Source: Gemmobacter aquarius (lineage in GTDB: Bacteria; Pseudomonadota; Alphaproteobacteria; Rhodobacterales; Rhodobacteraceae). Taken from it: a stretch of DNA of 64,000 bases. Under the pieces are notes generated by a model, which saw nothing but the letters and a program-made list of their open reading frames with translations, was not told the DNA's origin and did no database searches. Each line of letters starts with the position of its first letter. The stretch's first letter is position 1. Shown piece by piece: positions 36,161 to 59,284 of this stretch. The translations under genes and the position numbers were made by a program. The stretch spans positions 566,001-630,000 of the forward strand of contig NZ_CP028918.1 in the NCBI RefSeq assembly GCF_003060865.1, written 5' to 3'.

Positions 36161-36222
36161 TCCGGATAGCATGTGCTAGGTGTTCTGACAGCAAAGCGCA
36201 GCACACCCGCACATCTTGAACT

Positions 36223-38647: not shown

Positions 38648-38721
38648 TGATCCCGGCAAACTGGACCGTTTGAAGCTGGAGTTTTCGGCTACGCTTTCCT
38701 GGCTGGGAGAGGAGCGGAATC

Positions 38722-38983: not shown

Positions 38984-39006
38984 CAAACGATCCGGGGGAT
39001 CGTTTG
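38984..39006. repeat. palindrome at the orfA/orfB junction (copy B)
   Basis: CAAACGATCC and GGATCGTTTG with a three-base loop, directly after the orfA stop; identical to the one in copy A. Confidence 0.7.
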
Positions 39007-39032
39007 TAGGCCCGCAAGATCCGCCGAAAGCT

Positions 39033-39874
39033 TTGAAGCCTGGTCGGATGCGCGAACTCGTTCGCGGGATGTGCAGCGATTGGGCGGTGTCGATCCGGCA
39101 GGCTTGTGGGGCCATCGGGTTTGACCGTTCGACGTTCCACTACCAATCCCGCCGCACCGATCAGGCTGCTGTGGCCAAGCGGATCAAGGAGATCTGCGAG
39201 ACGCGCGTGAGGTATGGTTACCGGCGCGTTCACGTTCTGCTGGACCGTGAAGGCTGGGGCATCAACGTCAAGAAAGTCTATCGCATTTATAAGGAGTTGG
39301 GCATGCAGCTGCGGCACAAGACGCCCAAGCGGCGGGTGAAGGCGAAGTTGCGCGATGACCGCGCAGTGGCCATCGGGCCCAACGATGTCTGGGCAATGGA
39401 CTTCGTTCACGACCAACTGGCGACGGGCAAGAAGCTGCGGGTTCTGACCGTGGTCGACACCTTCTCGCGGCTCACGTCCCCGTGCTGGACGTTCGCTACA
39501 GCTACCGCGGAGAAGATGTCGTGACGACCCTCGACCGGGTGTGCCGCACGCCGGGTTACCCGAAGACGATCCGCGTCGACCAAGGCAGCGAGTTCGTCTC
39601 GCGAGACATGGACCTCTGGGCTTACCAGCGCGGGGTGGTCCTCGACTTCTCCCGGCCCGGCAAGCCGACGGACAATGCCTTCATCGAAGCCTTTAATGGA
39701 CGCTTCCGGGCGGAATGTCTGAACCAGCATTGGTTCCTCACCCTTGCGGACGCTGCCGAAAAGTTGGAGGCTTGGCGCAGGTACTACAACGAGGAACGGC
39801 CACACGGCGCGATCGGCAACAAGGTCCCGATCATGCTGACGAAATCAGGGGGCGTCACCAGCCCGTCACCCTGA
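39033..39874 (+). pseudogene. IS3 transposase orfB, frameshifted (copy B)
   Basis: First frame with VWAMDFVHDQ, second frame (39482-39874) with IRVDQGSEF and DNAFIEAFNG. The shift is at the same place as in copy A, just after TFSRLT near 39475. Two substitutions separate this region from copy A. Confidence 0.85.
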
Positions 39875-39932
39875 GCGAAGCCGGAAAACTCTGCCTTCGG
39901 GCGGTCCAACGTTGGGGATCGGATCAATCTAT

Positions 39933-41660: not shown

Positions 41661-41790
41661 TTTTTCCTGGCGGCTGGATTTGCGCCGGCCGGAACCCTAT
41701 GGATGACGCGCTCGTGTTTTTTTGCCTGACGAAATCCGCTGCGGCGGTAGTACCTTGACGAGAACACAAGATTAGCGGGGACGCGCTTCG

Positions 41791-42930
41791 ATGAGAAAAG
41801 ACCTGATCTTCCATATCGGCCTGCCGAAGACGGGAAGCACTGCGATACAGGCGTTTCTGGCTCGCAACATCGGTCTCTTGGGCGAACACGGCATATCTTA
41901 CCCTTTCATAACGGAAGAGATGGCAAGCTCGGGCGGAATTTCGGAGGGCAACGCCCTGCACGAATTCGTGCGGTTGGCAAAGCAAGAGGGAATTGCCACC
42001 TCATACGAGGACAGGGCACCGACGTTCTTTGCAAGGATGGTCGAAAACGCAATCGAGCAAAGCGAGCACCAGACGATCCTGATTTCGGGCGAGGAATTGT
42101 CGGCGCTGACGGTGCTGGATCATTTCCGCGAGCTGTCGAAGCATCACAGGGTGCGCATCGTCGCCTATGTCAGGGACCCTTACGACATCGTCTGTTCGAG
42201 TTGGAAGCAGCAGGTGAAGGTTTCGGGTGAGAGCCGGAGCTTTCCCGAGTTCGTGCATGACATGGGAAGATACACTGGGCGCGTGAGCATCAACCGTCTG
42301 GCTGAATTCGTACGGTCTGGCCTGGACGTCACGGCCCTGTCCTATGATTCATGCAAAAGCCGTTTGATCGAGTCGTTCCTCGGGGCTATCGGCGTCAGGG
42401 CTCCGCTCGAACGTTTGTCAGGCTTCGTCGGGCAAACGCATAATCGATCCCTGTCGTTCGAGGAGGCCTCTCTCGTCGTGATGACGTACAAGTGCGGCGA
42501 GTCGGACTGTGCGCCGCATCTGCTTGCAAGTTTCCAGAAGCGCGCGGCACCCTTCGTTGATTCTGTAATCTCGGAAATCGACGAGCAAATCCGGAGCAAA
42601 TTGCGTGACGACATCGAGACTTTGAACGCTCTGCTCGAGCCAGATCAACGGCTGAGGGTGGTGCCCCGGAAAGGCATATCCCTGTCGGATCTGGCAATTT
42701 CACACGAGAACGTGGGCTTACTGCTCAAGGTCTTGTCCGACGCAGTGGTCAAACGTCCTGCGAGCGATGATCGCCCATCGCAGGAATGGCTCGAACTGGG
42801 ACTTCCGGACGATTTCGACGCCGAGCGTTACCTGCTGCTGAATCCCGACGTAGCACGGGCCGGGCTTGGAGCGGAATACCACTATCTGAACCATGGCCGT
42901 TGGGAAAGCCGGGTATACAAGCGGGTGTGA
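41791..42930 (+). CDS. sulfotransferase-like protein
   Basis: 379 residues starting MRKDLIFHIGLPKTGSTAIQAFLA, a 5'-phosphosulfate-binding loop (GLPKTGST). VRIVAYVRDPYDIVCSSWKQQV is the 3'-phosphate motif with Arg and Ser. ILISGEELSA lies between. The last 45 residues (PDDFDAERYLLLNPDVARAGL, YHYLNHGRWE) form a small repeat known from many bacterial glycan-synthesis proteins, where it is a tail on glycosyltransferases. Together these suggest a carbohydrate sulfotransferase in the same cluster as the fusion protein upstream. Spacing is 130 bp from that gene. Confidence 0.78.
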   Translation: MRKDLIFHIGLPKTGSTAIQAFLARNIGLLGEHGISYPFITEEMASSGGISEGNALHEFVRLAKQEGIATSYEDRAPTFFARMVENAIEQSEHQTILISGEELSALTVLDHFRELSKHHRVRIVAYVRDPYDIVCSSWKQQVKVSGESRSFPEFVHDMGRYTGRVSINRLAEFVRSGLDVTALSYDSCKSRLIESFLGAIGVRAPLERLSGFVGQTHNRSLSFEEASLVVMTYKCGESDCAPHLLASFQKRAAPFVDSVISEIDEQIRSKLRDDIETLNALLEPDQRLRVVPRKGISLSDLAISHENVGLLLKVLSDAVVKRPASDDRPSQEWLELGLPDDFDAERYLLLNPDVARAGLGAEYHYLNHGRWESRVYKRV

Positions 42931-43350
42931 TGCGAGGCATTGCCGGTTGAGGGAAGTAGCAGGCGACGTCATGCAGGTTGGTGCGGTTTTCATACCGGGT
43001 GGGACGGTCTTCACGCTGCCTCGGTCGACGCGGATCGTCTTGCGATAAGCGATCATGCGGCACGGCCGACCGAAGATGCCTACGAAAACCTTGCCGCTTG
43101 AGGTGCCGTGACGGGTTCGCCCTTTGCAGGCTCCGCCGTTTTGACATCGGAACAGACCTGTTTGGGGTCAATCGGCCCGGCATGCCGGTGCGGATGAACG
43201 CAGCGGCGCCTTGTGCAAGGCGAGTGGTTTTGGCCTACATTTCCGATAAATGCGCGTTCAACAAGATTGATTTAAGTTTACTGCAGCGTGAAAATCGTGC
43301 CATTACTTGGTCATAGCGCCGTCTTGCGCGGCAATAACGGATGAGTGAAG
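42931..43350. other. intergenic stretch with an IS3 orfB fragment
   Basis: No gene. On the minus strand, about 43010-43075 matches a piece of the IS3 orfB found in copies A and B (KTIRVDRGS in place of KTIRVDQGS), without ends. It shows an older insertion at this spot. Confidence 0.55.
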
Positions 43351-43686
43351 ATGAAGAAACTGCTTTCGACTACGGCCATACTGTCCTTCTTCTCCGGGTC
43401 TATGGCTTATGCCGATCCTACTGTAATGCTGGGACTGGCGCTGAACTTCGGTGGCGGAAAGCCTGTGTCGACGGGCGTGACCATGAAGGTGTTGTCGTCT
43501 GACGAGCCCGACACATTCGTCGGAGCGGCGGGTGTTTCCTATTTCTTCGACGATGGTGGTTACTTCGGCGCGGACCTTGGCGTGGGTCGGACATTCGATA
43601 GTGCCGCTGCGACGATTTCTTATGATTTCCTGAACCAGCGTCCTCAGATATCGGCAGGTTGGGCGCGGACGCACAGCGTCTGCTGA
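43351..43686 (+). CDS. small exported protein, possible beta-barrel fragment
   Basis: 111 residues with a signal peptide (MKKLLSTTAILSFFSGSMAYA). The mature part has Gly-rich alternating strands (TVMLGLALNFGGGKPVSTG, GAAGVSYFFDDGGYFGADLGVG, ISYDFLNQRPQISAGW), like a small outer-membrane or surface beta-protein. It lacks a C-terminal aromatic and may be a shortened version of a longer barrel. It sits inside the glycan cluster. Confidence 0.55.
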   Translation: MKKLLSTTAILSFFSGSMAYADPTVMLGLALNFGGGKPVSTGVTMKVLSSDEPDTFVGAAGVSYFFDDGGYFGADLGVGRTFDSAAATISYDFLNQRPQISAGWARTHSVC

Positions 43687-43867
43687 CCTTGCTTCGCGCG
43701 TATTTGCCGGAAACGGTGGGTTCTTGGACATTTCAAAGCGCAGTATCCAAGCGCGAATGCAGCGGTCTGCACGGCAGATCGCTGCGTGACGGGATCGTAT
43801 GAACGCGTCCTGTTCCGATACCGTCGATAATGACGACCTCGCACCCATCCTCTGAGTTTTGACAAAG

Positions 43868-46294
43868 ATGCGCTTCGCGGTTGTCCTGCATCTCTATTAC
43901 GAAGACCAATGGCCGGAATTTTCGGCCGCATTGGAATCGATAAACGATACGTTCGGTCTTTTTGTCAGTTTGGGGCCGCACAGCGACTTCGAAGGCGAAA
44001 TCCGGCGCACTTTCCCGGATGCTGTTGTGTCATGCGTGCCGAATGTCGGGCGCGATGTCGCTCCGTTTCTCGCATGGCTGCCAAACCTGCAAAAGTTCGA
44101 TGCGGTCTGCAAGATACATACGAAGCGCAACGATGCAGGTCATATCGGTTGGCGGCGGTCACTGGTAAACGGCCTGCTTGGCAGCGCCGATACCGTTCGT
44201 GTTTATGTCGATGCGTTCGAGCAAGAGCCCGACTTGGTTCTTGCAGGTCCAAGTATGAACTATGTCGATGGCGACGCGCACATTTATCATTCCAGACGCG
44301 CGCTTACGTTGCAGCACGGCGAACTGCCTGCAGGCTGGGGATTTTTTGCCGGAACGATGTTCTGGTGCCGCCCATCCTTCTTTATCAGCCTGAAAGATGA
44401 TTACCCCCAAGATATCTTCGTCGCACATGGCGACTCTGAGGGTCACCCCGAACATGTCATCGAGCGCGCGTTCGGATTGATGGCACGTTGCGCCGACAAG
44501 AAGATCATGCTGGGCGGCGATCATCCGACCATCGCCCGGGCGTCGCAACTGCGCGGCAACTTGGATTGGAGCGAGCGTTACCTTGGCTTCAAGGCTGATC
44601 CCGCCGAAGAAACCTCGGTGGCCCAAGCGGAGGGAGTCGCGCCGAGCCTGGTGCAGCTTTACGAGCAGCAGTCAGGCCATCCTTCCGAGAAGTGGTCCGG
44701 TAGCCTCAAGCAATACGAAAGAATCTGCCGGGGCGTCCGCGACAGAAAAGTGAAATTGCTCGAAATCGGGGTGAGGAATGGCGGATCGCTTGAAGTGTGG
44801 TCCCGCTACTTTCCGTCAGGCCGCTTTTTCGTGGGCTGCGACATCGATCCCAAGTGCGCCGAAATCCGCTTCGACGACGACCGTATCAAAGTAGTCACCG
44901 CCGATGCTGCCGCACCGTTTGCCAAAACGCTGATCATGTCGATTTGCGGCCAGTTCGACATCATCATCGACGATGGGTCGCACCGTGCGGATGAAATCAT
45001 GCGCGCTTTCCTACAGTTCTTTCCGGCTCTGGCCGAAGGAGGCGTCTACATCGTCGACGGAGTGAATTTAGCGGAATTCTCTGCCGAAGAGGGAGGACCG
45101 ATGCAGCCGACCTCGTCTCTGGCTTTCTTTCGGACGATCGCGGACGTTTTGGCGAGAAGTACTTCGTCAGACCCGACAGATGCCGCCCATCGCCTCGCGC
45201 CCTTTGTCCGTGACCATGACCTCGAGATCGACGTCGCGTTGTTCAGGACGATCCTGTCCATCGAATTCGCGGGTTCGCTCGTCGTCTTGCGAAAAGCGGC
45301 GGCTCACGAGATCGGACCGGGAACGCGCATGCGTCGTGGATCGGCAAGCGCAGACTGGGATGCCGAAACCTTGCAATCTCTGGGGCAGGATTCGACGGCT
45401 TTCCCTTCCCCATCGCCGGCAGTGTTGCTGCCAGCGGCAATTTTTGTTTCGGCCGTCGTCTGCTTCAAGAATGGCAGCGCAAATCTGCCGGACGCCATCC
45501 TTTCGATCCAGAAACAGAGCAGGCCCGTATACGAGATCATCGTGATCGACGACGGTTCCGTCGCGCATGAAGCGGAATGGCTGCAGTATTTTGCAAAAGA
45601 TGCGGGCTTCAAGTTGCTTCGGCAGGACGCCGCAGGCAGCTCCGCGGCGCGGAATTTCGGGATCCGGGCGGCGTCCGGCACGCATGTCTGCTTCGTAGAT
45701 CAAGACGACATCTTGCTGCCCCAGCACGGAGAAGCCTTCGTGGACCATTGGCGCTCTATCAGTTCCAGACTGGACAGGCTCGGCTGGATATTCAGCGATT
45801 ACCGACTGATCGATGAAAACCAGACTGTCACTTCAAGTGCCGTTTTACCTCATTCGGCCGATCCAATACCGGCAACGCTAGATGCCATGCTGGGTCGCGA
45901 ATTGCACATGGCATCGGCGAATACGTTCATCGACCGGGCGGCTTTTCTGTCTGTCGGTGGATTCGATGAACGCCTTTGCGGGTTCGAGTTTGACGATCTT
46001 TTCCTGAGGCTGTTCATCCACGGATACGGTACCGACTTTTTCCCGCACGCTCTGGCCGATCGACGCAACCTGGGCGGGTTGGCATCCCAGGGCGCGTCAG
46101 TTTTGGACAGCACCGAAGCTTTTTTCGTCAAATGGCTCGGCCATCGTTTCGATAACCCCGAAGAACAGAAGCTGTGCCGCACGAACCTGAAGGCGCGGAT
46201 ACTGCGCAGCCTGCAAGCGCGTCTCGGGCAAGGGCTTGTCGATGACGACGAAGCGTTCTGGTCACTGTTCGAGAAATTGGAAGCAGCGAAGTGA
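43868..46294 (+). CDS. RgpF-like, methyltransferase and GT2 fusion protein
   Basis: 808 residues from ATG 43868 (a TTG three codons earlier is possible). Three parts are visible. Residues about 1-210 resemble RgpF (rhamnan synthesis F): VVLHLYYEDQWPEF, NVGRDVAPFLAWL, CKIHTKRN. Residues about 260-480 are a class I SAM methyltransferase: LLEIGVRNGGSLEVWSRYF, FFVGCDIDP, DIIIDDGSHRADEI. Residues about 530-720 are a GT2 domain: EIIVIDDGS, AGSSAARNFGI, CFVDQDDILL (the DxD-type Asp). Such multidomain enzymes build and methylate surface rhamnan-type or O-antigen chains. Its end overlaps the next gene by GTGA. Confidence 0.82.
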   Translation: MRFAVVLHLYYEDQWPEFSAALESINDTFGLFVSLGPHSDFEGEIRRTFPDAVVSCVPNVGRDVAPFLAWLPNLQKFDAVCKIHTKRNDAGHIGWRRSLVNGLLGSADTVRVYVDAFEQEPDLVLAGPSMNYVDGDAHIYHSRRALTLQHGELPAGWGFFAGTMFWCRPSFFISLKDDYPQDIFVAHGDSEGHPEHVIERAFGLMARCADKKIMLGGDHPTIARASQLRGNLDWSERYLGFKADPAEETSVAQAEGVAPSLVQLYEQQSGHPSEKWSGSLKQYERICRGVRDRKVKLLEIGVRNGGSLEVWSRYFPSGRFFVGCDIDPKCAEIRFDDDRIKVVTADAAAPFAKTLIMSICGQFDIIIDDGSHRADEIMRAFLQFFPALAEGGVYIVDGVNLAEFSAEEGGPMQPTSSLAFFRTIADVLARSTSSDPTDAAHRLAPFVRDHDLEIDVALFRTILSIEFAGSLVVLRKAAAHEIGPGTRMRRGSASADWDAETLQSLGQDSTAFPSPSPAVLLPAAIFVSAVVCFKNGSANLPDAILSIQKQSRPVYEIIVIDDGSVAHEAEWLQYFAKDAGFKLLRQDAAGSSAARNFGIRAASGTHVCFVDQDDILLPQHGEAFVDHWRSISSRLDRLGWIFSDYRLIDENQTVTSSAVLPHSADPIPATLDAMLGRELHMASANTFIDRAAFLSVGGFDERLCGFEFDDLFLRLFIHGYGTDFFPHALADRRNLGGLASQGASVLDSTEAFFVKWLGHRFDNPEEQKLCRTNLKARILRSLQARLGQGLVDDDEAFWSLFEKLEAAK

Positions 46295-47940
46295 ACTTGC
46301 GCGGTATTGCAGCTATCGATGAACCGTCTGCGCAGCCATCGGAGCACGAAGGCGATGCAGTCGCTGCGGCGTTGGCGGATGGCAAGCCTTACGTGGCCTT
46401 GGCGATTGCGGCGCGCGACCTGAAGGAGCAAGGCGAGTCCTACAAAACCCTATCAAGTGTCGCGAAAGTAGAAGCCGTGCTAGGGCACAACATCCGGGCG
46501 AAGCGGACATGGAAGCGCGCCCTGCATTTCAAGCATGACGCGCAAGCCTATGCTGGCCTCGGCTCCATTCTTGTGCTCGAAGGTGATCTGGATACTGGCG
46601 TCGCCATGCTGCAGTCTGCTCTTGCCCTGGCGCCGCAAGATGCTTCGCTGCTCTCCGCAATCGGGTTGGCCTACCTGTACCGCGACGATGCGGTCAGTGC
46701 GAGGCGCTATTCATCCCGCGCCTTGTATATCGATCCGGCAAACAACGAAGCCCTTTTGTGTAGGGCGCGGGCCGATCTCTTCCTCGGACACATCCATCTT
46801 GCGCAGGCGCAGATCGCTGCACTTTTCCGGTCGGGTTACAAGATCGACGAGGTTCGCCTCTTGCAGGTGGACCTTTTGGCCCATCTTGACGAATTCGAGT
46901 CGGCGTTGGTTTTGTCGGCAGACCTTTGCGAGCGTTACCCGGCATCGGACGAAGCGCTTTTGGCATTCCGCCGTGCGTTCCGTGCCTTTCAGCGCAGCGA
47001 AGACACAGATCGGTATCGCAGCTTTCTCGATGCGCTTTCGCATTGTTGGGACTCGTCGGCAGTACCGCTGGTCAACACATCGCCCTTGGACGACGGGCAG
47101 CGTTTGGATATCGTCATGCCGGTCCACAACGCGCCCGAGACGACCCGCAATAGCATTGAGAGCATTCTGCAGCGCTCGGGCAATCGGTTGAGCCGGTTGA
47201 TCATCGTCGACGATGGTAGCGGCGCGGAAACGCACGATATGCTTATGGAAATGGCAGTGCGAGACGGGCGTATCGAAGTGCTGCGGTGCGAGCAGCGCTC
47301 AGGATACACGAAAGCGGTGATGCAGGGGATCGCTCGCAGCACATCGGCTGCTTTCGTGGTGATCAACAGCGACACCTTGGTTACTTGGGACTGGCTCGAG
47401 TCGCTTTATTCGGCCCTGAAATCGGATCCAAAGGTTGCGATGGTCGGACCGCTTTCCAATAACGCCGCCTGGCAGAGCTACGGGCCTGTCTTTTCCGAGC
47501 ATGACGGCTTTCGCGTCACGCCCATCCCGGACCAACCCCTTCGCGAAGCCATCATCGCCGGATCGGCGGGCGGAGCACTCGTTCCCCTGCCGATGCTGCA
47601 CGGCTTCTGCATCCTGGTGGACCGCGTTGCATACGATGCCGTGGGCGGGTTCGATTCCACTACCTTTCCGGAAGGCTACGGCGAGACGCAGGACCTCTCG
47701 ATCCGCCTAGGCAGTGCCGGTCATCGCCTCTGTGCCGTCACGGAGTGCGTGGTTTTCCACGAACACGGGGCCAGCATTTCTATCCAGCGCCGCGGGACAC
47801 TTTCGCGGATCGCGCGCGAAAAGCTTTATGCGCGCTACAGCGCCCTCAATTATCTGTGCATCGAGATGATCTGCTGCGAAAATCCCCATCTCGGGGCCGT
47901 TCGGAACGCGGTTTCGGCCGAAGTTCCGTTCAAATACTGA
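46291..47940 (+). CDS. TPR-GT2 glycosyltransferase
   Basis: 549 residues from GTG 46291, overlapping the preceding stop (GTGA), so coupled. Residues about 40-250 are TPR-like helix pairs (AYAGLGSILVLEGDLDTGVAML, AIGLAYLYRDDAVSARRY). Residues about 270-500 are a GT2 domain: DIVMPVHNAPETTRNSIESIL, LIIVDDGSG, FVVINSDTLVTWDWLE (DxD-like Asp) and FPEGYGETQDLSIRLG. This resembles glycosyltransferases of O-antigen or rhamnan gene sets. It is the last intact gene of the cluster; IS66 copy 2 is inserted about 80 bp downstream. Confidence 0.82.
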   Translation: MNLRGIAAIDEPSAQPSEHEGDAVAAALADGKPYVALAIAARDLKEQGESYKTLSSVAKVEAVLGHNIRAKRTWKRALHFKHDAQAYAGLGSILVLEGDLDTGVAMLQSALALAPQDASLLSAIGLAYLYRDDAVSARRYSSRALYIDPANNEALLCRARADLFLGHIHLAQAQIAALFRSGYKIDEVRLLQVDLLAHLDEFESALVLSADLCERYPASDEALLAFRRAFRAFQRSEDTDRYRSFLDALSHCWDSSAVPLVNTSPLDDGQRLDIVMPVHNAPETTRNSIESILQRSGNRLSRLIIVDDGSGAETHDMLMEMAVRDGRIEVLRCEQRSGYTKAVMQGIARSTSAAFVVINSDTLVTWDWLESLYSALKSDPKVAMVGPLSNNAAWQSYGPVFSEHDGFRVTPIPDQPLREAIIAGSAGGALVPLPMLHGFCILVDRVAYDAVGGFDSTTFPEGYGETQDLSIRLGSAGHRLCAVTECVVFHEHGASISIQRRGTLSRIAREKLYARYSALNYLCIEMICCENPHLGAVRNAVSAEVPFKY

Positions 47941-48017
47941 ACGGGCAGAGACGGTCTTCTGAAGCATCAGTGCAGCGTCGAGCCGCCTCGATTACTACGA
48001 GGGCATGGTGGCCCACT
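47941..48017 (+). other. short spacer before IS66 copy 2
   Basis: The last bases hold the first half of a small open frame (SSRLDYYEGMVAH) that continues after the IS66 element at 50493, so the insertion split something here. Confidence 0.4.
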
Positions 48018-48033
48018 GTAAGCGCTGTGCCGA

Positions 48034-49572
48034 TCACACCATGACGGCGTAATTCCATGGGAGCAGGTCGCCGATCTGGCTTTGTTTGTGGCCTTTGACG
48101 ATGGCGGTAAGCGTGTTTGCGAGCCAGACGTGTGGGTCGATCGCGTTCATCTTGCAGGTTTCGATGAGCGAGGCGATGACGGCCCAGTTCTCAGCCCCGG
48201 CGTCGTGGCCAGCAAAGAGGGCGTTCTTTCGGTTCAGGGCGATGGGGCGAATGGTGCGTTCGACGGTGTTGTTGTCGATCTCGACGCGGCCATCAGTCAG
48301 GAAGCGGCCAAGGCCGTCGCGGTATTTGGCGATGTAGGCAAGTGCTTCGCCCAAGGGCGACTTTGCGGAGGCGCGGGCGCGGTGGTAGGCCAGCCAGTCG
48401 TCGAGGCGGGCGAGGATCGGGGCGGAGCGGTCCTGCCGGATGGCCAGCCGGGTCGCGGGGGCAGTGCCGCGGATCTCGGCCTCTATGGCATAAAGCTCGC
48501 GGATGAGAGCCACGCCGTCCTCGGCAATCGGCGCGGGTCCGCTGCGGGTGATCTCGATCAACTTGCGGCGTGCGTGCGCCCAGCAATATGCGAGCTGAAT
48601 GCCCGGACCGATCCGGTCCGCTGCGATCAAGCGGTTGTATCCGGCATAGCCGTCGACTTGGAGAATACCCCCAAAACCCTTCAATATCCGCTCAGCATGT
48701 TGCCCGCCCCGACCTGGGGCAAAGGTGAAGACCACGCCCGGTGGTGACGTGCCGCCCCACGGCCTGTCATCGCGGGCCAAGGCCCAGAAGTATCCGGTCT
48801 TGGTCTTTCTGGCCCCCGGATCGAGAACCGGGGCGCGGGTCTCGTCCATGAAGAGCTTGGTTGACCGCTTCAGGTCCGCCATCAGCGCGTCATGGACGGG
48901 GCGGAGTTCGAAGGCGGCGCGACCCACCCAATCGGCAAGGGTGGAGCGGTCGAGATCGACGCCTTGGCGGCTGTAGATCTGGGCCTGCCGGTAAAGCGGC
49001 AGGTGGTCGGCATACTTGCTGACCAGCACATGGGCGACCGTGGCTTCGGTCGGCATGCCGCCCGGGATCAGCCGCGCGGGGGCAGCCGCCTGAACCACGC
49101 CATCGGTGCAGGACCGGCAGGCATATTTGGGTCGGCGGGTGACGATGACACGGAACTGGGCGGGCACGATGTCGAGCCGTTCCGACACATCCTCGCCGAT
49201 GCAATGCAGGCAGCCACCGCAAGCGCAGGTCAGGCTGTCCGGCTCGATGATCTCCTCGATGCGCGGCAGGTGCTTTGGCAGCAATCCACGATTGGCGGCA
49301 CGCGGTTTGGCGGGGCGCTTGGCGGCCCGATCCGCGGCATCCTCTTCGGCATGGATCACGGCCATGGCCGTTTCCAGATCTTCCAGCGCCAGTTCGAACT
49401 GGTCCGGATCGCCCTTTTCCGATTTACGGCCGAAGACCGCCTGCTTGAAGGCCGCGACCAGCTTTTCTAGCCGTGCGATGCGCTCGTCCTTGCGCTTGTC
49501 ACGTGCGTCCGCGGCAATCAGCATCGCCTTCAGCGCAGCAATTTCTTCAAGCAGATCAGCGGTCTCTGGCAT
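48034..49572 (-). CDS. tnpC: IS66 transposase TnpC (copy 2)
   Basis: 512 residues, identical to the protein of copy 1 at 31553-33091, with the DDE residues intact. Confidence 0.95.
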   Translation of the reverse strand: MPETADLLEEIAALKAMLIAADARDKRKDERIARLEKLVAAFKQAVFGRKSEKGDPDQFELALEDLETAMAVIHAEEDAADRAAKRPAKPRAANRGLLPKHLPRIEEIIEPDSLTCACGGCLHCIGEDVSERLDIVPAQFRVIVTRRPKYACRSCTDGVVQAAAPARLIPGGMPTEATVAHVLVSKYADHLPLYRQAQIYSRQGVDLDRSTLADWVGRAAFELRPVHDALMADLKRSTKLFMDETRAPVLDPGARKTKTGYFWALARDDRPWGGTSPPGVVFTFAPGRGGQHAERILKGFGGILQVDGYAGYNRLIAADRIGPGIQLAYCWAHARRKLIEITRSGPAPIAEDGVALIRELYAIEAEIRGTAPATRLAIRQDRSAPILARLDDWLAYHRARASAKSPLGEALAYIAKYRDGLGRFLTDGRVEIDNNTVERTIRPIALNRKNALFAGHDAGAENWAVIASLIETCKMNAIDPHVWLANTLTAIVKGHKQSQIGDLLPWNYAVMV

Positions 49573-49651
49573 GGCTGATGTTTACCAAACCACCATGGGC
49601 TATGCCTCCGGAAAGAGCACGATGAGTCATCCTGCCGCAGGGCAGAACCGG

Positions 49652-50005
49652 TCATTCCACGGCTTTGGGAGCCTTCGCCGCGACGGCCCGAACGCGCCGC
49701 CAATCGAGCCCCGCAAACAGCGCCTCGAACTGCGCATGGTTCAGCATCATGACCCCGTCCTTAACGGCGGGCCAGGTGAAGCTGTGTTCTTCCAGCCGCT
49801 TGTAGGCCATCACCAGACCGGTGCCGTCCCAATACAAGAGCTTCAACCGGTCCGCCTTCTTCGCGCGGAACACGAAGACTGTCCCGGTGAACGGGTCCTT
49901 GCGCAGCTCATTCTTCACCATCGCGGCCAGGCTGTCGTGGCCCTTGCGGAAGTCGATGGGCTTCGTCGCCACCATGATCCGCACCCGGTTCGACGGGAAG
50001 ATCAC
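49652..50005 (-). CDS. tnpB: IS66 accessory protein TnpB (copy 2)
   Basis: 117 residues, identical to copy 1; GTGA overlap with tnpA. Confidence 0.95.
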   Translation of the reverse strand: MIFPSNRVRIMVATKPIDFRKGHDSLAAMVKNELRKDPFTGTVFVFRAKKADRLKLLYWDGTGLVMAYKRLEEHSFTWPAVKDGVMMLNHAQFEALFAGLDWRRVRAVAAKAPKAVE

Positions 50006-50427
50006 GGGAAAGCCCGCAATGCCATGATCAGTTCCGCGAGCCGTGCCGCAGGTGTGGCAACATCCAGCCGTATCGTCACAGGGCCGATCAACAGATCAAT
50101 CGACGCAGTTGAAACAGGCGTGTCCACTGCCTGCGCCGTCGCCACCGGCGCGGCGAACTCGGCTCCCGTTACCTCTGGCACGACCAGCTTGCCCTGCCGC
50201 GCAAGCGTCCGCCACGAAGACAGGTGGTTGGCCTTCACCCCATGCCGACCCGCCACCTCATTCACCGTGACACCAGGCACCAGCGTCTCCGCCACCATCC
50301 GGCCCTTCGCCTCGTCAGACCACCGCCGCTTGGCTGCCGGTGCTGCCAGCAGCTCCACAAAGCCGACGGCCTCCATACTGCGCTCCCGATGGACTCCCAC
50401 TGACACCTCCCGTGCAAATCTCCACAC
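50002..50427 (-). CDS. tnpA: IS66 accessory protein TnpA (copy 2)
   Basis: 141 residues, identical to copy 1; helix-turn-helix protein of the element. Confidence 0.9.
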   Translation of the reverse strand: MWRFAREVSVGVHRERSMEAVGFVELLAAPAAKRRWSDEAKGRMVAETLVPGVTVNEVAGRHGVKANHLSSWRTLARQGKLVVPEVTGAEFAAPVATAQAVDTPVSTASIDLLIGPVTIRLDVATPAARLAELIMALRAFP

Positions 50428-50492
50428 GAGGGCGCATCGCAGCTTACGGATTCAGCAGGAAGGTGGGGTCGGCACAGCGCTTACGGCCCACT

Positions 50493-50615
50493 GCATGGCA
50501 CATGCTTCGTATACGCAGATATCCGTCGGCTTAAGCGCGAGTTGGCGCAGGCGTCGTAAGAGCGATGAAAATGAAGCCACGGTCGGTTCAACCGCTCATC
50601 GCGACAACTCGGTCT
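50493..50615 (+). pseudogene. fragment of a gene split by IS66 copy 2
   Basis: Removing IS66 and one target duplication joins a frame that reads SSRLDYYEGMVAHCMAHASYTQISVGLSASWRRRRKSDENE and stops near 50615. There is no start in the available upstream bases, because a stop lies just before, so this is a C-terminal remnant of a lost gene, perhaps a further member of the glycan cluster. Identity unknown. Confidence 0.4.
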
Positions 50616-50877
50616 GAAATGTTCAGAAAGCAATCGGAATGGCACGATCCGGGCGACTTTGCTTGTCGGACGAGTAGACGGTTACACGCTCGCGGCGCTG
50701 CATAGCAGACAAGACCCTCAGCGACAATGGGCGGGCTTTGAGTTCGGTCACCGCGCCAAGCGAGGAGCCATCATATAGCTCAGCGCTATCGCCCTTTGCC
50801 GCCGCAACGACGAAGGGCAGCTATGGGCCGGTTGCGTTTTGATCACCCCGATCACCGAAGTGATGGTCATGATCGAA
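50616..50877. other. gene-free stretch
   Basis: No gene or clear signal seen. Confidence 0.45.
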
Positions 50878-51663
50878 TTATGTCGGATGCTCTGCTGATA
50901 CATAGATGCGCTGGTGAATAAGGGTCGCCCACTTTTCGGTCTGCATGAAGGGAATATCCCCAGCATCCCGGCCGGACCCGATGATCGCGAGGTCGCAGGC
51001 CGAGCTCATACCGGTTGCATCAACAAGGTGCCATGCGCCGTCCAGCCAGACCTCTGCAACGGCATGGAAATCCGGTGGGTCAACATTGGCGCTATATCCG
51101 GTGGCATATCTGGCGGGGATATTTCCCGCGCGCGCAAGGCCACAGACAAGATGTGCATAGTCCCGACAAACCCCTTCACGCGTGATGAACGTATCAAATG
51201 CCGTTGTATTGGCACATGAACTGCCGGGGACATAGACGAGCGAGGCCGCCGTCCAGTCGAGGATCGCCGCGATCTTCTCGCCGCCGTCTAGATGCCCGAA
51301 CCGCTCGTCGGCAAACGTTTGGAGCAGATCGGAAGGGCATAGGCGGGATGGCCTGAGATACGTTAAAACTTCGCCCGACAGCGCATATAGGGGCGTTGCC
51401 GCAAGGCTAGGCAAGGCAACATTGGATTTTCTTACATCGACTTGGGCGCGATAGCGCAGGTTCAGCTGGCCGCCCTCTGAATGCACCCAGACCCGTTGAC
51501 CGACATTGCCCTCGCCGTCGATCCAGCGCAGGGTTGCATTCTCGATTTCCAGCACACTCGAGAGCACGGTCTGCCCCTCCGTCTGCGCTACCGTGATTGC
51601 CAACAGCGCTGGATCGCCGCCCTCAAGCGCGTAGTTCATGTCGACATCGATAGCCAATTTCAT
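50878..51663 (-). CDS. transglutaminase-like protein
   Basis: 261 residues starting MKLAIDVDMNYALEGGDPALLAI. The first 120 residues form a beta-rich N-terminal domain of the transglutaminase/Bact_transglu_N type. The core has the triad: Cys in REGVCRDYAHL, His in PPDFHAVAEVWL and Asp in WHLVDATG. Bacterial members are cytosolic or periplasmic cysteine proteases or crosslinkers; there is no signal peptide, so a cytosolic role is likely. A longer frame opens at 51720 but the extra 19 residues look non-conserved. It is divergent from the large helicase gene. Confidence 0.85.
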   Translation of the reverse strand: MKLAIDVDMNYALEGGDPALLAITVAQTEGQTVLSSVLEIENATLRWIDGEGNVGQRVWVHSEGGQLNLRYRAQVDVRKSNVALPSLAATPLYALSGEVLTYLRPSRLCPSDLLQTFADERFGHLDGGEKIAAILDWTAASLVYVPGSSCANTTAFDTFITREGVCRDYAHLVCGLARAGNIPARYATGYSANVDPPDFHAVAEVWLDGAWHLVDATGMSSACDLAIIGSGRDAGDIPFMQTEKWATLIHQRIYVSAEHPT

Positions 51664-52011
51664 AAGCTGCTTGCCTGCTGAAGCCTTTGGTGCGTGCCTA
51701 TCATGTCGGGCGGTCGGCACATCTGTTCAAATGGTGATCGGCTCGGAGCCTTGAAAAGTAATAGCAGAGGTGATCATCGGCTGGCTGCTTAGACGAAGCC
51801 TCACCACAGCGTGAACAGACGTGGGATCACCGCCAGGGGCCGACTTCGAGCGATAGAGTGACGGAGGGACACAGTGGGCGCGTTTGTTTGATGCTGCTTG
51901 GGACTGGATCCGCAATGGGTCCATCTGAGCCTCGGGCTTTCCTAATCAGTTGCTGCACCTTCAGCTCTGTCTTAACACTTGCACACCCTATAGATTTTCC
52001 AGCTGGAATTT

Positions 52012-55000
52012 ATGCCTTTTCTTGAATTTTTGCGCCCAAGGCCCGCCGACAAGCTGCCTCTGCTAGAGCGGTGTTTGTCGGTCGATCTGGAAGTCGATCC
52101 CAAGAAGGCAGCGATCTTCGACCTCGCCGCCGTGCGCTTTGGTTCCGGTCCTGCTGTGGCGGCGAGAGGACGGTTGCAAAAGTCACTGGATGATCTTGAA
52201 GCAGCCCTTAAGGCGACAAGTCACATTATCGGTCACAACATCCTGCGTCATGACATCGAGCATCTTCTGGCCGCGCGTCCGAGGCTTCGCGACAAGATGA
52301 GCGCGCCGATCGATACGCTTTGGCTGAACCCGCCGGCCTTTCCGCGCAACCCTTACCATCACTTGGTGAAGCATCACCACGACGGGCGCTTGCAGGCGGG
52401 GCATGTGAACGATCCTGAGCTAGATGCCCGGCTGGTGTTTCAGGTTCTGGAAAACCAGATCGAAGCCTTGAGAAACCAAGCGCCCGAGATGCTTCTGGCG
52501 TGGCATTTTCTTGTGACGCGATCGGATCGGTCGGACGGGTTCGACGCTGTTTTTCAGCATGTCCGCAACGCGAACGCACCCGACCGAGGGACGGCACTCG
52601 CCGCGATCCGCAAAATCTTGGTCGGCCAGGCGTGTGGTGCGCAAGTCGACCCCGCTCTGGATGCCCTGAAAGACGCGCAGATGGCTTGGCCGATGGCCTA
52701 TGCGCTAGCGTGGATATCGGTGTCCGGAGGCGAGTCCGTCATGCCGCCTTGGGTCCGGTTTTCGTTTCCGCGGGCCGCGTTGATCGTTCGTCAACTGCGC
52801 GACACCAACTGTGGCAAGCCGACTTGCTCCTGGTGCGCAACGATGAACGATCCGAAGGGCGCGCTGGCGAAATGGTTCGGGTTTCCGGCTTTCCGTCCTG
52901 AGCCTACCGATGCTGACGGACGACCGTTGCAGGAGGTCATCGTCGAGAGAAGCATGGCCCATGACCATGTCCTCGGCATCCTGCCCACCGGCACCGGCAA
53001 GTCGGTCTGTTATCAAGTCCCGGCCCTCAGCCTCTATGACAAAACAGGCGCATTGACCGTCGTGATCTCGCCTCTCGTGGCATTGATGGCCGACCAAGTG
53101 CAGGGGATGGAACGCGCTGGTATTTCGTCAGCTGTAACGATCAACGGTATGCTGTCGATGCCAGAGCGGCAGGAAGCGCTGGATCGCGTCAGGCTGGGTC
53201 AGGCTGCTATCCTGCTGATTTCGCCAGAACAACTTCGGTCGGTCTCGGTGCGTTCGGTCCTGAATCAACGCGAGGTCGGAATTTGGGTGTTGGACGAGGC
53301 GCATTGCGTCTCGAAATGGGGGCACGATTTCCGGCCTGACTATCGCTACATCGGGCGTTTCATCCGAGAATTCTCGGGTGATGCACCGCCAGCCCCGATC
53401 CTCTGCCTGACGGCTACGGCCAAGCCCGAGGTCGTGCGCGATATCACCGACCATTTCCGCGAGCGGCTTGGAATCGAGCTTGGACTGTTCGACGGGGGGG
53501 CGACACGGACGAACCTGTCCTTTTCGGTGCTGCCGACGGGGAAGGAGAGCAAGCTTGGCGATATCCTGACGGCCATACAGGATCATCTTCCCGAGGGGCG
53601 TTCTGGCGCGGTTGTCTATTGCGCGACCCGCCCTGAGACCGAGCGCGTGGCAGAATTTCTTAAGGCACAGGGTCTGGCCGCTGCCCATTTTCACGCGCGG
53701 TTGACGGCCGATGACAAACGGTCCGTGCAGGAAGCCTTTCGTGTGGGTGACCTGCGGGTGATCGCGGCGACGAATGCCTTCGGCATGGGGATCGACAAGC
53801 CCGACATCCGGCTTGTTGTTCATGCCGACATCCCCGGCTCACTCGAGAACTATCTTCAGGAGGCAGGTCGCGCCGGACGTGACCGACAGCCTGCCACGTG
53901 CGTGCTGTTGTATCATACCGACGATGTTGAACGGCAATTCACCCTGGCCGCACGTTCGCGTCTGGAAAGGCACGAGATCGGCGCCATCCTCAAGGCTCTG
54001 CGTCGGATCGACGAGCAGGGACGGAACGGCGGCAAGGTTGTGGCGACCACCGGAGAAATCGTGCGCGAGGAGAAGGATCGCGACTTTATCCGCGACAGCG
54101 CGACCGACGACACGCGGGTCAAAACGGCCGTTTCGTGGCTGGAGGAGGCAACCCTTGTCTCACGTGAAGAGAACCGTGTGCAGGTGTTCCCTTCATCGCT
54201 CATGGTGCGCACGTTGGCCGAAGCGGCAGAGCGGCTCGGAAAAGCGCAGATCACAGAAACACGGCGCAAGCAGCTTTTGGATATCGTCCGCCACCTGATG
54301 AACACGCCCGCCGATCAGGGTATTTCAACCGATGAGTTGACCGGCATCGCGGGCCTTACACATCGCGGACTCGCCAAGGCCATGGCTGACCTTGAGACGC
54401 TCAGTCTGGCGAAGAACGACATCGCGATTACGGTTCAAGTCCACGTCGGGATAGAGAACGCCTCGCGCCAGCGGCTTGCGGCAGCACGGGCGCTGGAAGG
54501 CGCGCTGATCGGCACGATGCGGGAAATGGCACCTGATGCTGATGCGGGTGGGGGGTGCCTCTTGGACCTCACGGTTGCCAGCCAGAAGATGCGCGAGATC
54601 GGGAATTCCGGTGCAGGCCCTCATATCCTTGAACGCCTGTTGCGCAGTATCGAGCGGGACGGGCGCGACGAAGATGGCGGGCAGGGCAATATCAGGCTGA
54701 GAAAGCTGTCGTCCAAGACGCTCGAACTTACGCTTCAGCGGTCATGGCGGGTGGTGGACCAGACGGCTTCCCTGCGCTGGACCGCAGCCGAACGGTTGCT
54801 GGAATTCATGATCGCCAAGGTGCCCAGCGGGACCAGGGGCAAGGATATTCAGGTCGAAATGACGCTCGGTGACCTTTTGGCCCAGCTGAACGGTGATGCT
54901 GTCATAAGGGCATCGGGCATAAAGGACATGACCAAGCTGATGGAACGTGCGCTGCTTTGGCTGCACGAACAGCAGGTGCTGACGCTGGGCAAGGGACTGA

Positions 55001-57147
55001 CGGTCTTTCGCTCGGCCATGACGATCCATCTGAACCCAGAGCGGACGCCATTTGCGGCCAAGGACTTCCTGCCCCTGCAAGAGCATTACCGCGAGCAGAC
55101 CGTGCAGACCCATGTCATGGCTGCCTATGCCGAAAAGGGGCTGGAACGGATCGACGAGGCGCAGCGGCTGTCAGAAGATTACTTCACCATGGATCAAGAG
55201 CGCTTCCTGCGCCGCTGGATGCCCGGGCAGGGTATTGAGATTCGCCGCCAAACCACCGGACGCGCGTGGAAGCAGATCGTCGAAGACCTCGGCAATCCGA
55301 CTCAGCAAGAGATCGTGGCCGATGATCGCGAGGAGACCAACGTCCTCGTGCTGGCCGGTCCCGGATCAGGCAAGACACGGGTGCTCGTTCACCGCATGGC
55401 CTATCTTCTGCGCGTCCGGCGCGAAGACCCCAAGGGCATACTCGTCCTGACCTACAACCGCCATGCCGCGGCCGAGATCAAGGCTCGCCTTCGCGGACTT
55501 GTGGGAGAGGATGCCGCTTGGGTCACTGTCTCGACTTGCCACGCGCTTGCCATGCGGCTGGTAGGTGCGAGCTTTGTTGGTGGAGCGACCGAGACTCGCG
55601 ATTTCGACGCCATCCTGCAGGACGCCGTGCGCCTGCTCACGGGCGAAGGATTAAGCCGCGCCGAGGCCGAGGCGCAGCGCGAGGCGTTGATCCAAGGATA
55701 CCGCTGGATTCTTGTCGATGAGTATCAGGACATCGGACCCGACGAATATGCGCTGATTGCTGCCGTTGCGGGGCGCTCGCTGGAAGACCCCGATCAGCGC
55801 CTCAGCCTCTTTGCCGTGGGGGATGACGACCAGAACATCTACGCCTTCAGCGGGGCGTCGATTTCGTTCATCCGCCAGTTTGAACAGGATTGCCGAGCCA
55901 AGCCGAAGTTCCTGACCGAGAATTACCGATCGACCCGCTACATCATCGACGCTGCAAACCAGGTCATCGAACCTGCCCAAGGGCGCATGAAAGCGGGCCA
56001 CCCGATCACGGTAGACAAGGTTCGCACCCTCCATCCCGGCGGCGGCGTCATGGCGACCTACGACCCCGTCAGCCGTGGCCGCGTGCAATTCCTCGACGTT
56101 GTCGGCGACGACGTCGTTCAAGGCGTTGCTGCGGTGGATGAACTGGTCCGGCTTTCCCGTCTCGACCCGGATTTCTCGTGGTCGCGCACGGCGATCATCT
56201 CTCGCGACTGGAAGCGACTGGCGCCCGTGCGGGCCTATGCCGAGAAGCTGGGTCTGCCTGTCGAGATGGCAAATGAAAAGCTGCCGAGCATATGGCGCAT
56301 GCGCGAGATGCAAAGGTTGGTTGCTGGCCTGCGGGAGCGGCCAGCGGCAATGCTGACGATCCAAAACATCCTTGATGTCCTCAACCGGCAACGCCCGACA
56401 CGCTGGGTCGAGTTGATTGCCGAGGGTGTCGCGGATCTCGCCCGCGAACTCGGCACCAAGGCGATCCCTGTTCCAGATGCCGTGGAGTGGCTTGCCGAAT
56501 GGGCACAAGATGTCAGGGGATCTCAGCGTGGGCTTCTGCTTTTGACCGCGCATCGGTCCAAGGGGCTGGAGTTCGATCATGTTGTAATCCTGAACGGCGG
56601 CTGGCAGGCGCTTTCGCAAGGTGAAGACGGCGAAGCTCCACGGCGCCTGTTTTACGTCGCCATGACTCGGGCGCGGCGAAGCCTTTCCGTCGTGACGAGC
56701 GGGGCACATGCCTTCGTCCGCGCCGACAGTGAAAGCGAGCTGTTGCGCAAGGTCGAGGCCCCGCGACCCGTCGACCTGCCCGAACCTGACCAATATCAAT
56801 TGCCAGACATGAGCGCGGTCGATCTTTCCTATGCCGGTCGTCTTGCCGAGACGAGCCAGACGCTTGCCGCCGTTGCTGCTGCCGAGGTCGATGACCCCGT
56901 GACGCTGGACCTACACGAGGGAAAATGGATGATCATTGACACCCGAGGACGAGTGCTCGGGCGTATGGCGGGGAACTGGAATCCGCCCGAAGGGACGCAC
57001 CTTGTTGCAGGCAAAGTCGGGGCCATTGTCCGCTGGCGCAAAACCGACAACGAGGAGGCTTTCCAAGTCTACATAAAGCGTGGGGAGTGGGAGACGGTTC
57101 TTCCGGAGCTGGTGTTTCGAAAGGACCCTCGCGCCTTCAAAAGGTGA
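52012..57147 (+). CDS. exonuclease-RecQ-UvrD triple helicase fusion
   Basis: 1711 residues in three parts. About 1-150: a DnaQ-type (DEDD) exonuclease, with LSVDLEVDP (exo I), GHNILRHD (exo II) and NDPELDARL (exo III). About 300-660: RecQ helicase, with GTGKS at 327-331 (Walker A), DEAH at 428-431 and NAFGMGIDKPDIR plus QEAGRAGRDRQ. About 1090-1600: UvrD/Rep helicase, with GPGSGKT at 1116-1122, DEYQD at 1236-1240, GDDDQNIYAFSGAS, ENYRST, TAHRSKGLEFD and MTRAR near 1551. All motifs look intact, so it may combine two motors of different directions with a nuclease for DNA repair or phage defence. It stands alone, without a neighbouring partner. Confidence 0.92.
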   Translation: MPFLEFLRPRPADKLPLLERCLSVDLEVDPKKAAIFDLAAVRFGSGPAVAARGRLQKSLDDLEAALKATSHIIGHNILRHDIEHLLAARPRLRDKMSAPIDTLWLNPPAFPRNPYHHLVKHHHDGRLQAGHVNDPELDARLVFQVLENQIEALRNQAPEMLLAWHFLVTRSDRSDGFDAVFQHVRNANAPDRGTALAAIRKILVGQACGAQVDPALDALKDAQMAWPMAYALAWISVSGGESVMPPWVRFSFPRAALIVRQLRDTNCGKPTCSWCATMNDPKGALAKWFGFPAFRPEPTDADGRPLQEVIVERSMAHDHVLGILPTGTGKSVCYQVPALSLYDKTGALTVVISPLVALMADQVQGMERAGISSAVTINGMLSMPERQEALDRVRLGQAAILLISPEQLRSVSVRSVLNQREVGIWVLDEAHCVSKWGHDFRPDYRYIGRFIREFSGDAPPAPILCLTATAKPEVVRDITDHFRERLGIELGLFDGGATRTNLSFSVLPTGKESKLGDILTAIQDHLPEGRSGAVVYCATRPETERVAEFLKAQGLAAAHFHARLTADDKRSVQEAFRVGDLRVIAATNAFGMGIDKPDIRLVVHADIPGSLENYLQEAGRAGRDRQPATCVLLYHTDDVERQFTLAARSRLERHEIGAILKALRRIDEQGRNGGKVVATTGEIVREEKDRDFIRDSATDDTRVKTAVSWLEEATLVSREENRVQVFPSSLMVRTLAEAAERLGKAQITETRRKQLLDIVRHLMNTPADQGISTDELTGIAGLTHRGLAKAMADLETLSLAKNDIAITVQVHVGIENASRQRLAAARALEGALIGTMREMAPDADAGGGCLLDLTVASQKMREIGNSGAGPHILERLLRSIERDGRDEDGGQGNIRLRKLSSKTLELTLQRSWRVVDQTASLRWTAAERLLEFMIAKVPSGTRGKDIQVEMTLGDLLAQLNGDAVIRASGIKDMTKLMERALLWLHEQQVLTLGKGLTVFRSAMTIHLNPERTPFAAKDFLPLQEHYREQTVQTHVMAAYAEKGLERIDEAQRLSEDYFTMDQERFLRRWMPGQGIEIRRQTTGRAWKQIVEDLGNPTQQEIVADDREETNVLVLAGPGSGKTRVLVHRMAYLLRVRREDPKGILVLTYNRHAAAEIKARLRGLVGEDAAWVTVSTCHALAMRLVGASFVGGATETRDFDAILQDAVRLLTGEGLSRAEAEAQREALIQGYRWILVDEYQDIGPDEYALIAAVAGRSLEDPDQRLSLFAVGDDDQNIYAFSGASISFIRQFEQDCRAKPKFLTENYRSTRYIIDAANQVIEPAQGRMKAGHPITVDKVRTLHPGGGVMATYDPVSRGRVQFLDVVGDDVVQGVAAVDELVRLSRLDPDFSWSRTAIISRDWKRLAPVRAYAEKLGLPVEMANEKLPSIWRMREMQRLVAGLRERPAAMLTIQNILDVLNRQRPTRWVELIAEGVADLARELGTKAIPVPDAVEWLAEWAQDVRGSQRGLLLLTAHRSKGLEFDHVVILNGGWQALSQGEDGEAPRRLFYVAMTRARRSLSVVTSGAHAFVRADSESELLRKVEAPRPVDLPEPDQYQLPDMSAVDLSYAGRLAETSQTLAAVAAAEVDDPVTLDLHEGKWMIIDTRGRVLGRMAGNWNPPEGTHLVAGKVGAIVRWRKTDNEEAFQVYIKRGEWETVLPELVFRKDPRAFKR

Positions 57148-58316: not shown

Positions 58317-58574
58317 TCATGCAGCACGCAGTGCGGCTTCAAAGAAGCCGGACTGATAAAGTTCGAGCTCGGTAACAAAGCCCGCCTGCATAGTGGCTTC
58401 ATAGGCTTCGATCTCTGCAACCTTCCACCGGGCCGCGTTGCCGCCGGGATGATAGGGCTTCGGAAAAGCGCCTTTCCGGCACCACCACCAGATCGTGTCG
58501 ACCGATACGCTGAAGCGTGCGGCGACCTGTTCGACGGGAATGTAGAAGGACTCGGGAGGGAGCGGTTTGTTCAT
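58317..58574 (-). CDS. AlpA-like helix-turn-helix regulator
   Basis: 85 residues. It matches the AlpA/MerR-like excisionase pattern: YIPVEQVAARFSVSVDTIWWWCRKGAFPKPYHPGGNAARWKVAEIEAYE, with the FPKP and W elements typical of phage AlpA regulators. Such genes usually sit next to integrases and control excision; no integrase is seen nearby. It lies 330 bp from tRNA-Phe, a common integration site, so it may be the last trace of an island or prophage. Confidence 0.8.
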   Translation of the reverse strand: MNKPLPPESFYIPVEQVAARFSVSVDTIWWWCRKGAFPKPYHPGGNAARWKVAEIEAYEATMQAGFVTELELYQSGFFEAALRAA

Positions 58575-58900
58575 GACACATCCATTGCAGGGGTAAGTTC
58601 GGAGAGGTGTCAGGCTAAGCCCGACTCCGATTCTTTAGCGGCGAGGCCCTTGCGTTGCGTCGGAATCTGATCGCCAAAATAAGCGCCCACTTAACAAAGC
58701 GCCGACCGTTGTATTTTTGCAACTTTCATCTCGTCATACGGACCACGGCACAAAACGTCTGTTAGGCCCTGAGGTCATACCGATTCAGGGCTTCATGACC
58801 GGACGATGCGTTTTGTAACCCAGATGTAACCCAGCCCGCGAACAGCCTCGGATGCGAAGACATGCGCTTATTATTTAATGAGCGATTTCAGGGTGTTAAG
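58575..58900. other. gene-free stretch between the AlpA-like gene and tRNA-Phe
   Basis: About 325 bp, no gene. It contains the repeated GTAACCCAG at about 58816 and 58827. An attachment-site duplicate of the tRNA 3' end was looked for here and not found. Confidence 0.45.
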
Positions 58901-58976
58901 TGGTGCCCAGAGCCGGAATCGAACCAGCGACACGCGGATTTTCAATCCGCTGCTCTACCAACTGAGCTATCTGGGC
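58901..58976 (-). tRNA. tRNA-Phe (GAA)
   Basis: 76 nt with CCA encoded. The acceptor stem GCCCAGA pairs with TCTGGGC, with discriminator A. The D arm region reads TAGCTCAGTTGGTAGAGC; the anticodon loop TTGAAAA in a GCGGA/TCCGC stem gives GAA, and the T arm contains GGTTCGATTCC. All stems pair. Confidence 0.97.
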
Positions 58977-58979
58977 ACC

Positions 58980-59284
58980 GTGTCGAAGCCTGCGCTTCGG
59001 ATTGAGGCGTGATACGTCAGGGTCGGGGGGCTGTCCAGAGGGTTTGAGGAAAAATATGCGGTGGAGCGGGTGATTTGGGTGAGGTGGGTCAAGGACCGGT
59101 CGGGCGGGGTTGCCCTGCATAGGGATTGCGGGGGTGTGTGGTTTTGGCCGACCGGAGCGGGGCATATCGGTGGGCGATCGGGGGCGGAAACCGGGGTCTG
59201 GGTGGCGCGGTGCGTTCCGGGGGCGGGGGGCTGCCCTTCTGCCCGAATTAAGCGGGCCGGGACTGGCGCGCAGGGCCTGATGCC
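58980..59284. other. gene-free G-rich stretch
   Basis: About 300 bp between tRNA-Phe and yacG; plus-strand G-rich, no gene seen. It may hold a tRNA promoter at the tRNA side. Confidence 0.5.

Follow-up and report, generated by a model that had tools for sequence, protein, structure and literature searches.

A widespread family of bacterial proteins, filed mostly as RecQ, is a three-enzyme chain in which an exonuclease-like domain, a RecQ helicase and a UvrD helicase follow one another, with a conserved departure in the exonuclease active site. The member described here, from Gemmobacter aquarius, is 1711 amino acids long and is encoded on the forward strand at 52012..57147 of the window, i.e., the whole 64,000-nucleotide stretch that was analyzed. 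From its context, we infer an accessory helicase-nuclease, spread by horizontal transfer, that is directed against foreign DNA (phage or plasmid) and mostly works by itself, a reading to which we give roughly even odds (about 0.5). Should the family restrict foreign DNA, a single gene would do what the multi-subunit helicase-nucleases do, and it would put to the test whether DEDD catalysis is possible with neither His nor Tyr. Even without such a role, many RecQ annotations in alphaproteobacteria, cyanobacteria and Bacteroidales do not denote RecQ orthologues.

Architecture of the triple-fusion protein

The chain starts with a DnaQ/DinG-like exonuclease domain (residues ~18–156, 52063..52479), which is connected through a helical linker (residues ~157–290, 52480..52881) to a RecQ SF2 helicase core (residues ~291–640, 52882..53931). 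A middle region of mixed α/β character without a Pfam match (residues ~641–1085, 53932..55266) leads to the UvrD SF1A helicase (residues ~1086–1565, 55267..56706) and a C-terminal stretch (residues ~1566–1711, 56707..57144) that, according to the secondary structure of the model, ends in a small β-rich domain. All of these features lie on the forward strand. The first-pass annotation had proposed one chain with two types of motor and an exonuclease-like domain, and this is real: the 1711-residue frame is intact and both helicase cores are complete. Full-length relatives, low dN/dS and confident models rule out a product of chance or a frame artefact. Compared with three relatives, dN/dS (NG86) was 0.04–0.18 in each of six stretches of the gene, although these values are rough, with dS often above 1; every domain of the fusion is under strong purifying selection. 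The genome contains a further RecQ-like frame and further UvrD-like frames elsewhere, and the triple fusion is therefore an extra protein.

The assignment of the two motors to the RecQ (SF2) and UvrD (SF1) helicases, also made at first pass, is borne out by Pfam and TIGR scores and by fold matches. The RecQ-type core has a DEAH motif, scores 297.1 bits against TIGR00614 (cut-off 219.8) and matches RecQ and BLM in fold, and the PADLOC model for PsyrT matches residues 305–666. The protein thereby resembles bacterial RecQ and RqlH/PsyrT, but it falls far below the cut-off of the housekeeping RecQ equivalog (TIGR01389, 345.2 of 640.2 bits), and a Pfam sequence scan of the whole protein at E ≤ 0.1 detected neither a RecQ Zn-binding (RecQ_Zn) nor an HRDC domain. 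In the UvrD part, PF00580 scores 143 bits (cut-off 23) and PF13361 (UvrD_C) 51.5 bits (cut-off 25.6), and Foldseek aligned it with 2is1 at E 1.6e-27. This motor shares the fold of UvrD, PcrA and Rep and is not an equivalog of any of the three (PcrA, 161.9 of 911.2 bits; UvrD, 147.5 of 1144.45; Rep, 114.9 of 951.45). In their known families, RecQ and UvrD motors both run 3′–5′. The DpdF equivalog of the Dpd system (NF041063) reached 206.9 of 550 bits. Among the 25 PADLOC families listed out of 84, the models of the known systems DpdF, PsyrT and GajB match the helicase cores only, and these systems were set aside as identities for the protein.

The N-terminal domain carries the motifs D25-x-E27, H75-N76-x4-D81 and N133-x-P135-x2-D138, in which D25, E27, D81 and D138 correspond to the four acidic metal ligands of the DEDDh type. 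Their conservation was followed in an alignment of 85 rows, made up of the window protein, 68 database proteins and 16 loci, with relatives from three phyla. D25 and E27 are present in 81 rows (the other four being gapped), D81 in all 85 and D138 in 84, and 80 rows have all four acids together. DEDDh enzymes have a catalytic His five residues ahead of the final Asp. Here, N133 takes its place; this residue is Asn in 85/85 rows and was Asn in 33/33 of an earlier, partly different set. The initial description of the exonuclease motifs as intact holds for the acids but not for the His. With Asn in place of the catalytic residue, nuclease activity of the domain cannot be assumed, and the putative exonuclease would be a variant of its class. 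A literature search for DEDD enzymes with Asn for His found no paper combining these features.

The domain is not easily recognized. Pfam did not identify residues ~18–156, and a PDB search with the window domain alone gave a single spurious match (E 0.38). A profile built from 24 members placed DinG first in the PDB (8zef, E 2.6e-5), with a match over profile positions 53–191 that leaves the D25/E27 motif outside; four proteins named exodeoxyribonuclease III came next (E 0.0022–0.013). In the DinG alignment, with the register read by eye, N133 lies opposite the His of HRADEDA, which the DinG chain keeps. The model has an order of strands and helices compatible with a DnaQ fold, although residues 121–131, just before N133, have a pLDDT below 50 and the fold searches barely covered residues 1–274. 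No exonuclease appeared among the fold-search matches listed, but the RecQ core fills that list, which is therefore uninformative on the N-terminal domain. When the profile was run locally against 8573 frames of the collected loci, there was no frame from outside the family at E ≤ 10 among the weakest 45 hits listed, the weakest match being a family member at 2.8e-18, and the ordinary 3′–5′ exonucleases annotated in loci L036 and L037 were missed. An hhalign comparison with those two exonucleases was not significant (E 0.25), though it placed N133 opposite their His. By these local results, the domain is not readily detected as an exonuclease; on the sequence comparisons as a whole, a DinG-like identity is well supported, not proven.

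The linker contains four cysteines, C208, C267, C272 and C275 (C-x58-C-x4-C-x2-C), between the exonuclease-like domain and RecQ. The quartet is complete in 45/85 rows, the 40 rows without it being the 40 that came from the search with a Nostoc query, and might form a putative Zn or Fe-S site.

Spread, patchiness and genomic location

Among the best 120 of 5129 matches to the window protein, relatives are mostly ~1700 residues long and 66–88% identical, and those with names are mostly from Rhodobacterales. Full-length relatives also occur in Nostoc and other cyanobacteria, in Bacteroidales, on an Aliarcobacter plasmid and in Thiothrix and Allochromatium, so that the range takes in Alpha- and Gammaproteobacteria, Cyanobacteria, Bacteroidales and the Aliarcobacter plasmid. 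They are named “RecQ family ATP-dependent DNA helicase”, “ATP-dependent DNA helicase RecQ” or plain helicase. A scan of genome contigs kept 80 loci out of at least 501 relatives. A fusion unique to one genome is ruled out by these relatives in several phyla; what had been called an unusual machine does combine two motors and an exonuclease-like domain in one chain, but it belongs to a widespread family rather than being a one-off. In Bacteroidales, relatives from Parabacteroides, Barnesiella, Coprobacter, Xylanibacter and Bacteroides are very abundant and 83–88% identical to the B. finegoldii query, which could reflect recent spread or a conserved, even housekeeping, role. Two loci, L048 and L064, come from records titled Exiguobacterium profundum and Phycisphaeraceae, yet their genes are Rhodobacterales-like (N-termini 75% and 61% identical); these are probably mislabelled or contaminated assemblies.

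Within this range, the gene is patchily distributed. At E ≤ 1e-200, it was found in 28/198 genomes of the family, and it was present in 9/289 genomes of the class, the source genome being included in both counts; G104, the only further genome of the genus searched, lacks it. In a tree of 70 rows, Hyphomicrobiales appear in three places and Sphingomonadales in two, and six changes of order are needed against a minimum of three for four orders, with seven of the labels set by hand. Plasmids carry the gene as well: in 16 of 38 matching plasmid records, a single place accounts for 80% or more of the query. Of the 74 genome loci that could be judged (6 more could not), 66 have a single frame of at least 1600 residues and 8 are broken, possibly through errors in draft sequencing.

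In the window, the gene lies near a break in synteny. A tRNA-Phe(gaa) gene is found at 58901..58976 on the reverse strand and is adjoined by a gene for an 85-residue protein with a Pfam HTH_17 domain (58317..58574, reverse strand), presumably AlpA/excisionase-like. Two related genomes, G104 and G135, are syntenic with the window from about position 63.4 kb to the tRNA, and the synteny breaks at its 3′ end (window 58898–59045), with the helicase on the non-syntenic side. Samples to the left of the helicase (1–6000 and 34000–51800) gave only short, scattered matches in G104 and G135, with 40 candidates scored per genome, and the copy in G135, an 87% identical protein, is on a different contig. 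The tRNA-Phe and HTH_17 genes (window 58317–58976) form the border of an extensive strain-variable region that continues to the left and includes the helicase. The HTH_17 gene supports a mobile region and is separate from the helicase system. No attachment-site copy of the tRNA end was found in the source genome with up to two mismatches. An apparent integrase remnant beside the tRNA-Phe gene of G104 (L126:6994–7632), so read by eye, had no Pfam match and was discarded. Integration at tRNA genes is also unsupported as a rule for the family, with a tRNA in 9/50 loci against 1/20 control stretches, a raw comparison of 10 tRNAs in 0.99 Mb of loci with 1 in 0.22 Mb of controls.

IS66 genes lie near the helicase gene. 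Three frames of equal length, 512 residues, are found at window 21503–23041, 31553–33091 and 48034–49572; the third is an IS66 transposase by Pfam, and from the frame pattern the first two look like further copies. Between 28710 and 47940, inside the variable region, there are glycosyltransferase and sulfotransferase genes in a cluster resembling those for surface polysaccharides.

The gene does not appear to be a phage gene as such, as in none of 23 matching phage records did a single place span 80% of the query. At least one locus does lie on a viral contig (L123, IMG/VR), in which some 7 kb separate the helicase from upstream genes for the small and large terminase subunits (L123:439–2956); two ParB/methyltransferase-like genes lie in the interval.

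Neighboring genes

The nearest window neighbors scanned are a transglutaminase and IS66 upstream and an SDR enzyme downstream. Recurrent neighbors were surveyed in 92 loci (80 genome, 11 plasmid and 1 viral) as families present anywhere in the fetched flanks of at least three loci. One representative of each was scanned; the ABC, LysR and aldehyde dehydrogenase families were named by eye and HsdR from the annotation of L037. The largest cluster consists of ABC transporter ATPases (11 loci), and DUF3489 (8 loci), LysR-like (7), aldehyde-dehydrogenase-like (6) and unnamed 156-residue (6) proteins also recur. Defense-type families include a DUF3427/PLD helicase assigned by PADLOC to type IV restriction (6 loci), a DUF4011-helicase-Vsr/PDC-S37 protein (4), HsdM (4) and HsdR (3), accompanied by WYL regulators (6), HNH_2 proteins (6), an RNase_H_2-AAA helicase (3) and tyrosine integrases (two families, in 6 and 5 loci). 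The PLD-DEAD-DUF3427 helicase, scanned in L050, lies near the gene in L050, L057, L069, L078, L092 and L097, in at least two places of the tree.

A same-strand gene within 120 bp was found upstream in 9/81 loci and downstream in 5/77; the triple-fusion gene is usually alone, with no close partner. The first-pass remark that no neighbor explains the protein stands for the window, but a few relatives have an HNH_2 gene (5 loci) or a DUF4011-helicase-Vsr gene (3 loci) directly upstream. The HNH_2 gene lies 14–16 bp away on the same strand in L072, L076, L088, L095 and L102, which make up five of the 12 rows in their clade; in L100, from a different part of the tree, it is 23 bp downstream on the opposite strand. 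The proteins of these six loci have 290–360 residues and carry the HNH_2 domain at the C-terminus, behind an unnamed N-terminal domain that is conserved; we take them to resemble, and possibly to be, modification-dependent endonucleases. The DUF4011-Vsr gene, also on the same strand, is separated from the helicase gene by −4 bp in L063, 120 bp in L068 and 119 bp in L071, the overlap in L063 depending on the start codon chosen. In L063 (2121–15538) and L071 (2020–15540), an RNase_T-containing protein (scanned in L071 only), a 1963-residue DUF4011-helicase-Vsr protein (scanned in L063 only) and the exonuclease-RecQ-UvrD gene are encoded on one strand; the last of these is broken in L071.

At E ≤ 1e-20, 69 PADLOC families had matches among the 123 near neighbors taken from 32 loci, against 35 for 123 control proteins drawn from 20 stretches in four genomes; the comparison counts families rather than genes, the first 25 were listed for each set and both numbers are inflated by enzymes that match many models. 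The enrichment of defense families is modest.

Possible functions and relation to known systems

A role in genome conflict is suggested by the patchiness, the location on plasmids and in a variable region, the movement between orders and the recurrent restriction-type neighbors. The adjoining HNH_2 and DUF4011-Vsr genes, the terminase genes of L123, the additional RecQ- and UvrD-like frames of the source genome and the likeness of the UvrD part to GajB of Gabija also speak for it. A machine for DNA processing or defense, as first proposed, is still the best reading. On foreign DNA that is entering the cell or being replicated, the protein would bind at a 3′ single-stranded end, a gap or a fork, upon which the RecQ (SF2) and UvrD (SF1A) motors would pull and unwind the duplex while the N-terminal DEDD-N domain might trim or clamp the 3′ end so exposed. 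Where an HNH_2 or DUF4011-Vsr gene lies alongside, as in some lineages, its product may be the endonuclease that makes the initial cut. The direction and coupling of the motors, the nuclease activity and the defense role are all predicted. More tentatively, the family might be a pan-bacterial single-gene immune machine, combining SF2 and SF1 motors with a new type of DEDD exonuclease, in which Asn replaces the general-base His, and recruiting the predicted HNH_2 or DUF4011-Vsr endonuclease for that cut in some lineages. Several observations speak against defense: the exonuclease-like domain lacks the usual His, most loci have no close partner, and the HNH_2 gene is beside the helicase in just 5/12 rows of its clade. 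The enrichment of defense families is modest, ABC transporter ATPases form the largest recurrent neighbor cluster, and the PADLOC families listed match no part of the protein but the helicase cores. The defense-like neighbors may merely reflect genomic islands, and abundance in Bacteroidales, with 83–88% identity between named genera, could mean a housekeeping role there.

A rival reading is accessory DNA repair or recombination, with the protein as a bacterial counterpart of WRN that has a UvrD motor in addition and works on stalled forks or host recombination intermediates. The known functions of RecQ, UvrD and DinG helicases are in repair, the order of exonuclease and RecQ resembles that of WRN, and both the purifying selection on all domains and the abundance in Bacteroidales favor it; yet the occurrence in 28/198 genomes of one family, the location on plasmids and in a variable region, the separate RecQ- and UvrD-like frames already present and the broken copies in 8/74 judgeable loci (draft errors permitting) make this somewhat unlikely. 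About as doubtful, and compatible with either defense or repair, is an N-terminal domain that has lost its exonuclease activity and serves just to hold 3′ DNA ends or partners, leaving a double helicase without a nuclease. The invariant Asn and the failure of Pfam to recognize the domain are in its favor, but a dead domain would be expected to lose its metal-binding acids, and these are kept almost without exception over three phyla, with a dN/dS of 0.045–0.094 for the domain. It is improbable that the protein instead helps its carriers, in the replication, recombination or transfer of plasmids and islands. Plasmids do carry it, the Aliarcobacter copy (L042) is beside ParA/ParB and replication genes, a Bacteroides copy (L040) is some 5–7 kb from plasmid partition genes and tyrosine integrases flank several loci; there is, however, no fixed partner among element genes, and the gene is carried by plasmids, by a provirus contig and by records with “chromosome” in the title (L114, L119).

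The family is apparently unstudied. By title and opening of the abstract, in a search that did not extend to subscription papers and outside preprints, no paper among those listed characterizes a homologue with this architecture, and the passages of PMC5512222 consulted deal with other proteins. DinG is the best profile match of the N-terminal domain, and B. subtilis DinG is described in the abstract of PMC12525004 as a DEDD exonuclease fused to a helicase. GajB of the Gabija system is among the profile and fold matches of the UvrD part, but the window motor, in contrast to UvrD, PcrA, Rep and GajB, is fused to exonuclease-like and RecQ domains, and no GajA OLD nuclease was found among the window neighbors scanned. 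The helicase of DinG is XPD-like, with neither RecQ nor UvrD. WRN is a eukaryotic DEDDy enzyme that has the exonuclease and RecQ in the same order but no UvrD motor, and no WRN exonuclease was among the 14 profile matches of the N-terminal domain. AddAB, AdnAB and RecBCD combine two motors with a nuclease that acts on DNA ends, and the UvrD part matches the structures of RecB, AddA and AdnB. No RecB-type nuclease domain was found in a Pfam scan of the window protein, which differs from these complexes in being a single chain in which one of the motors is an SF2 helicase of the RecQ type.
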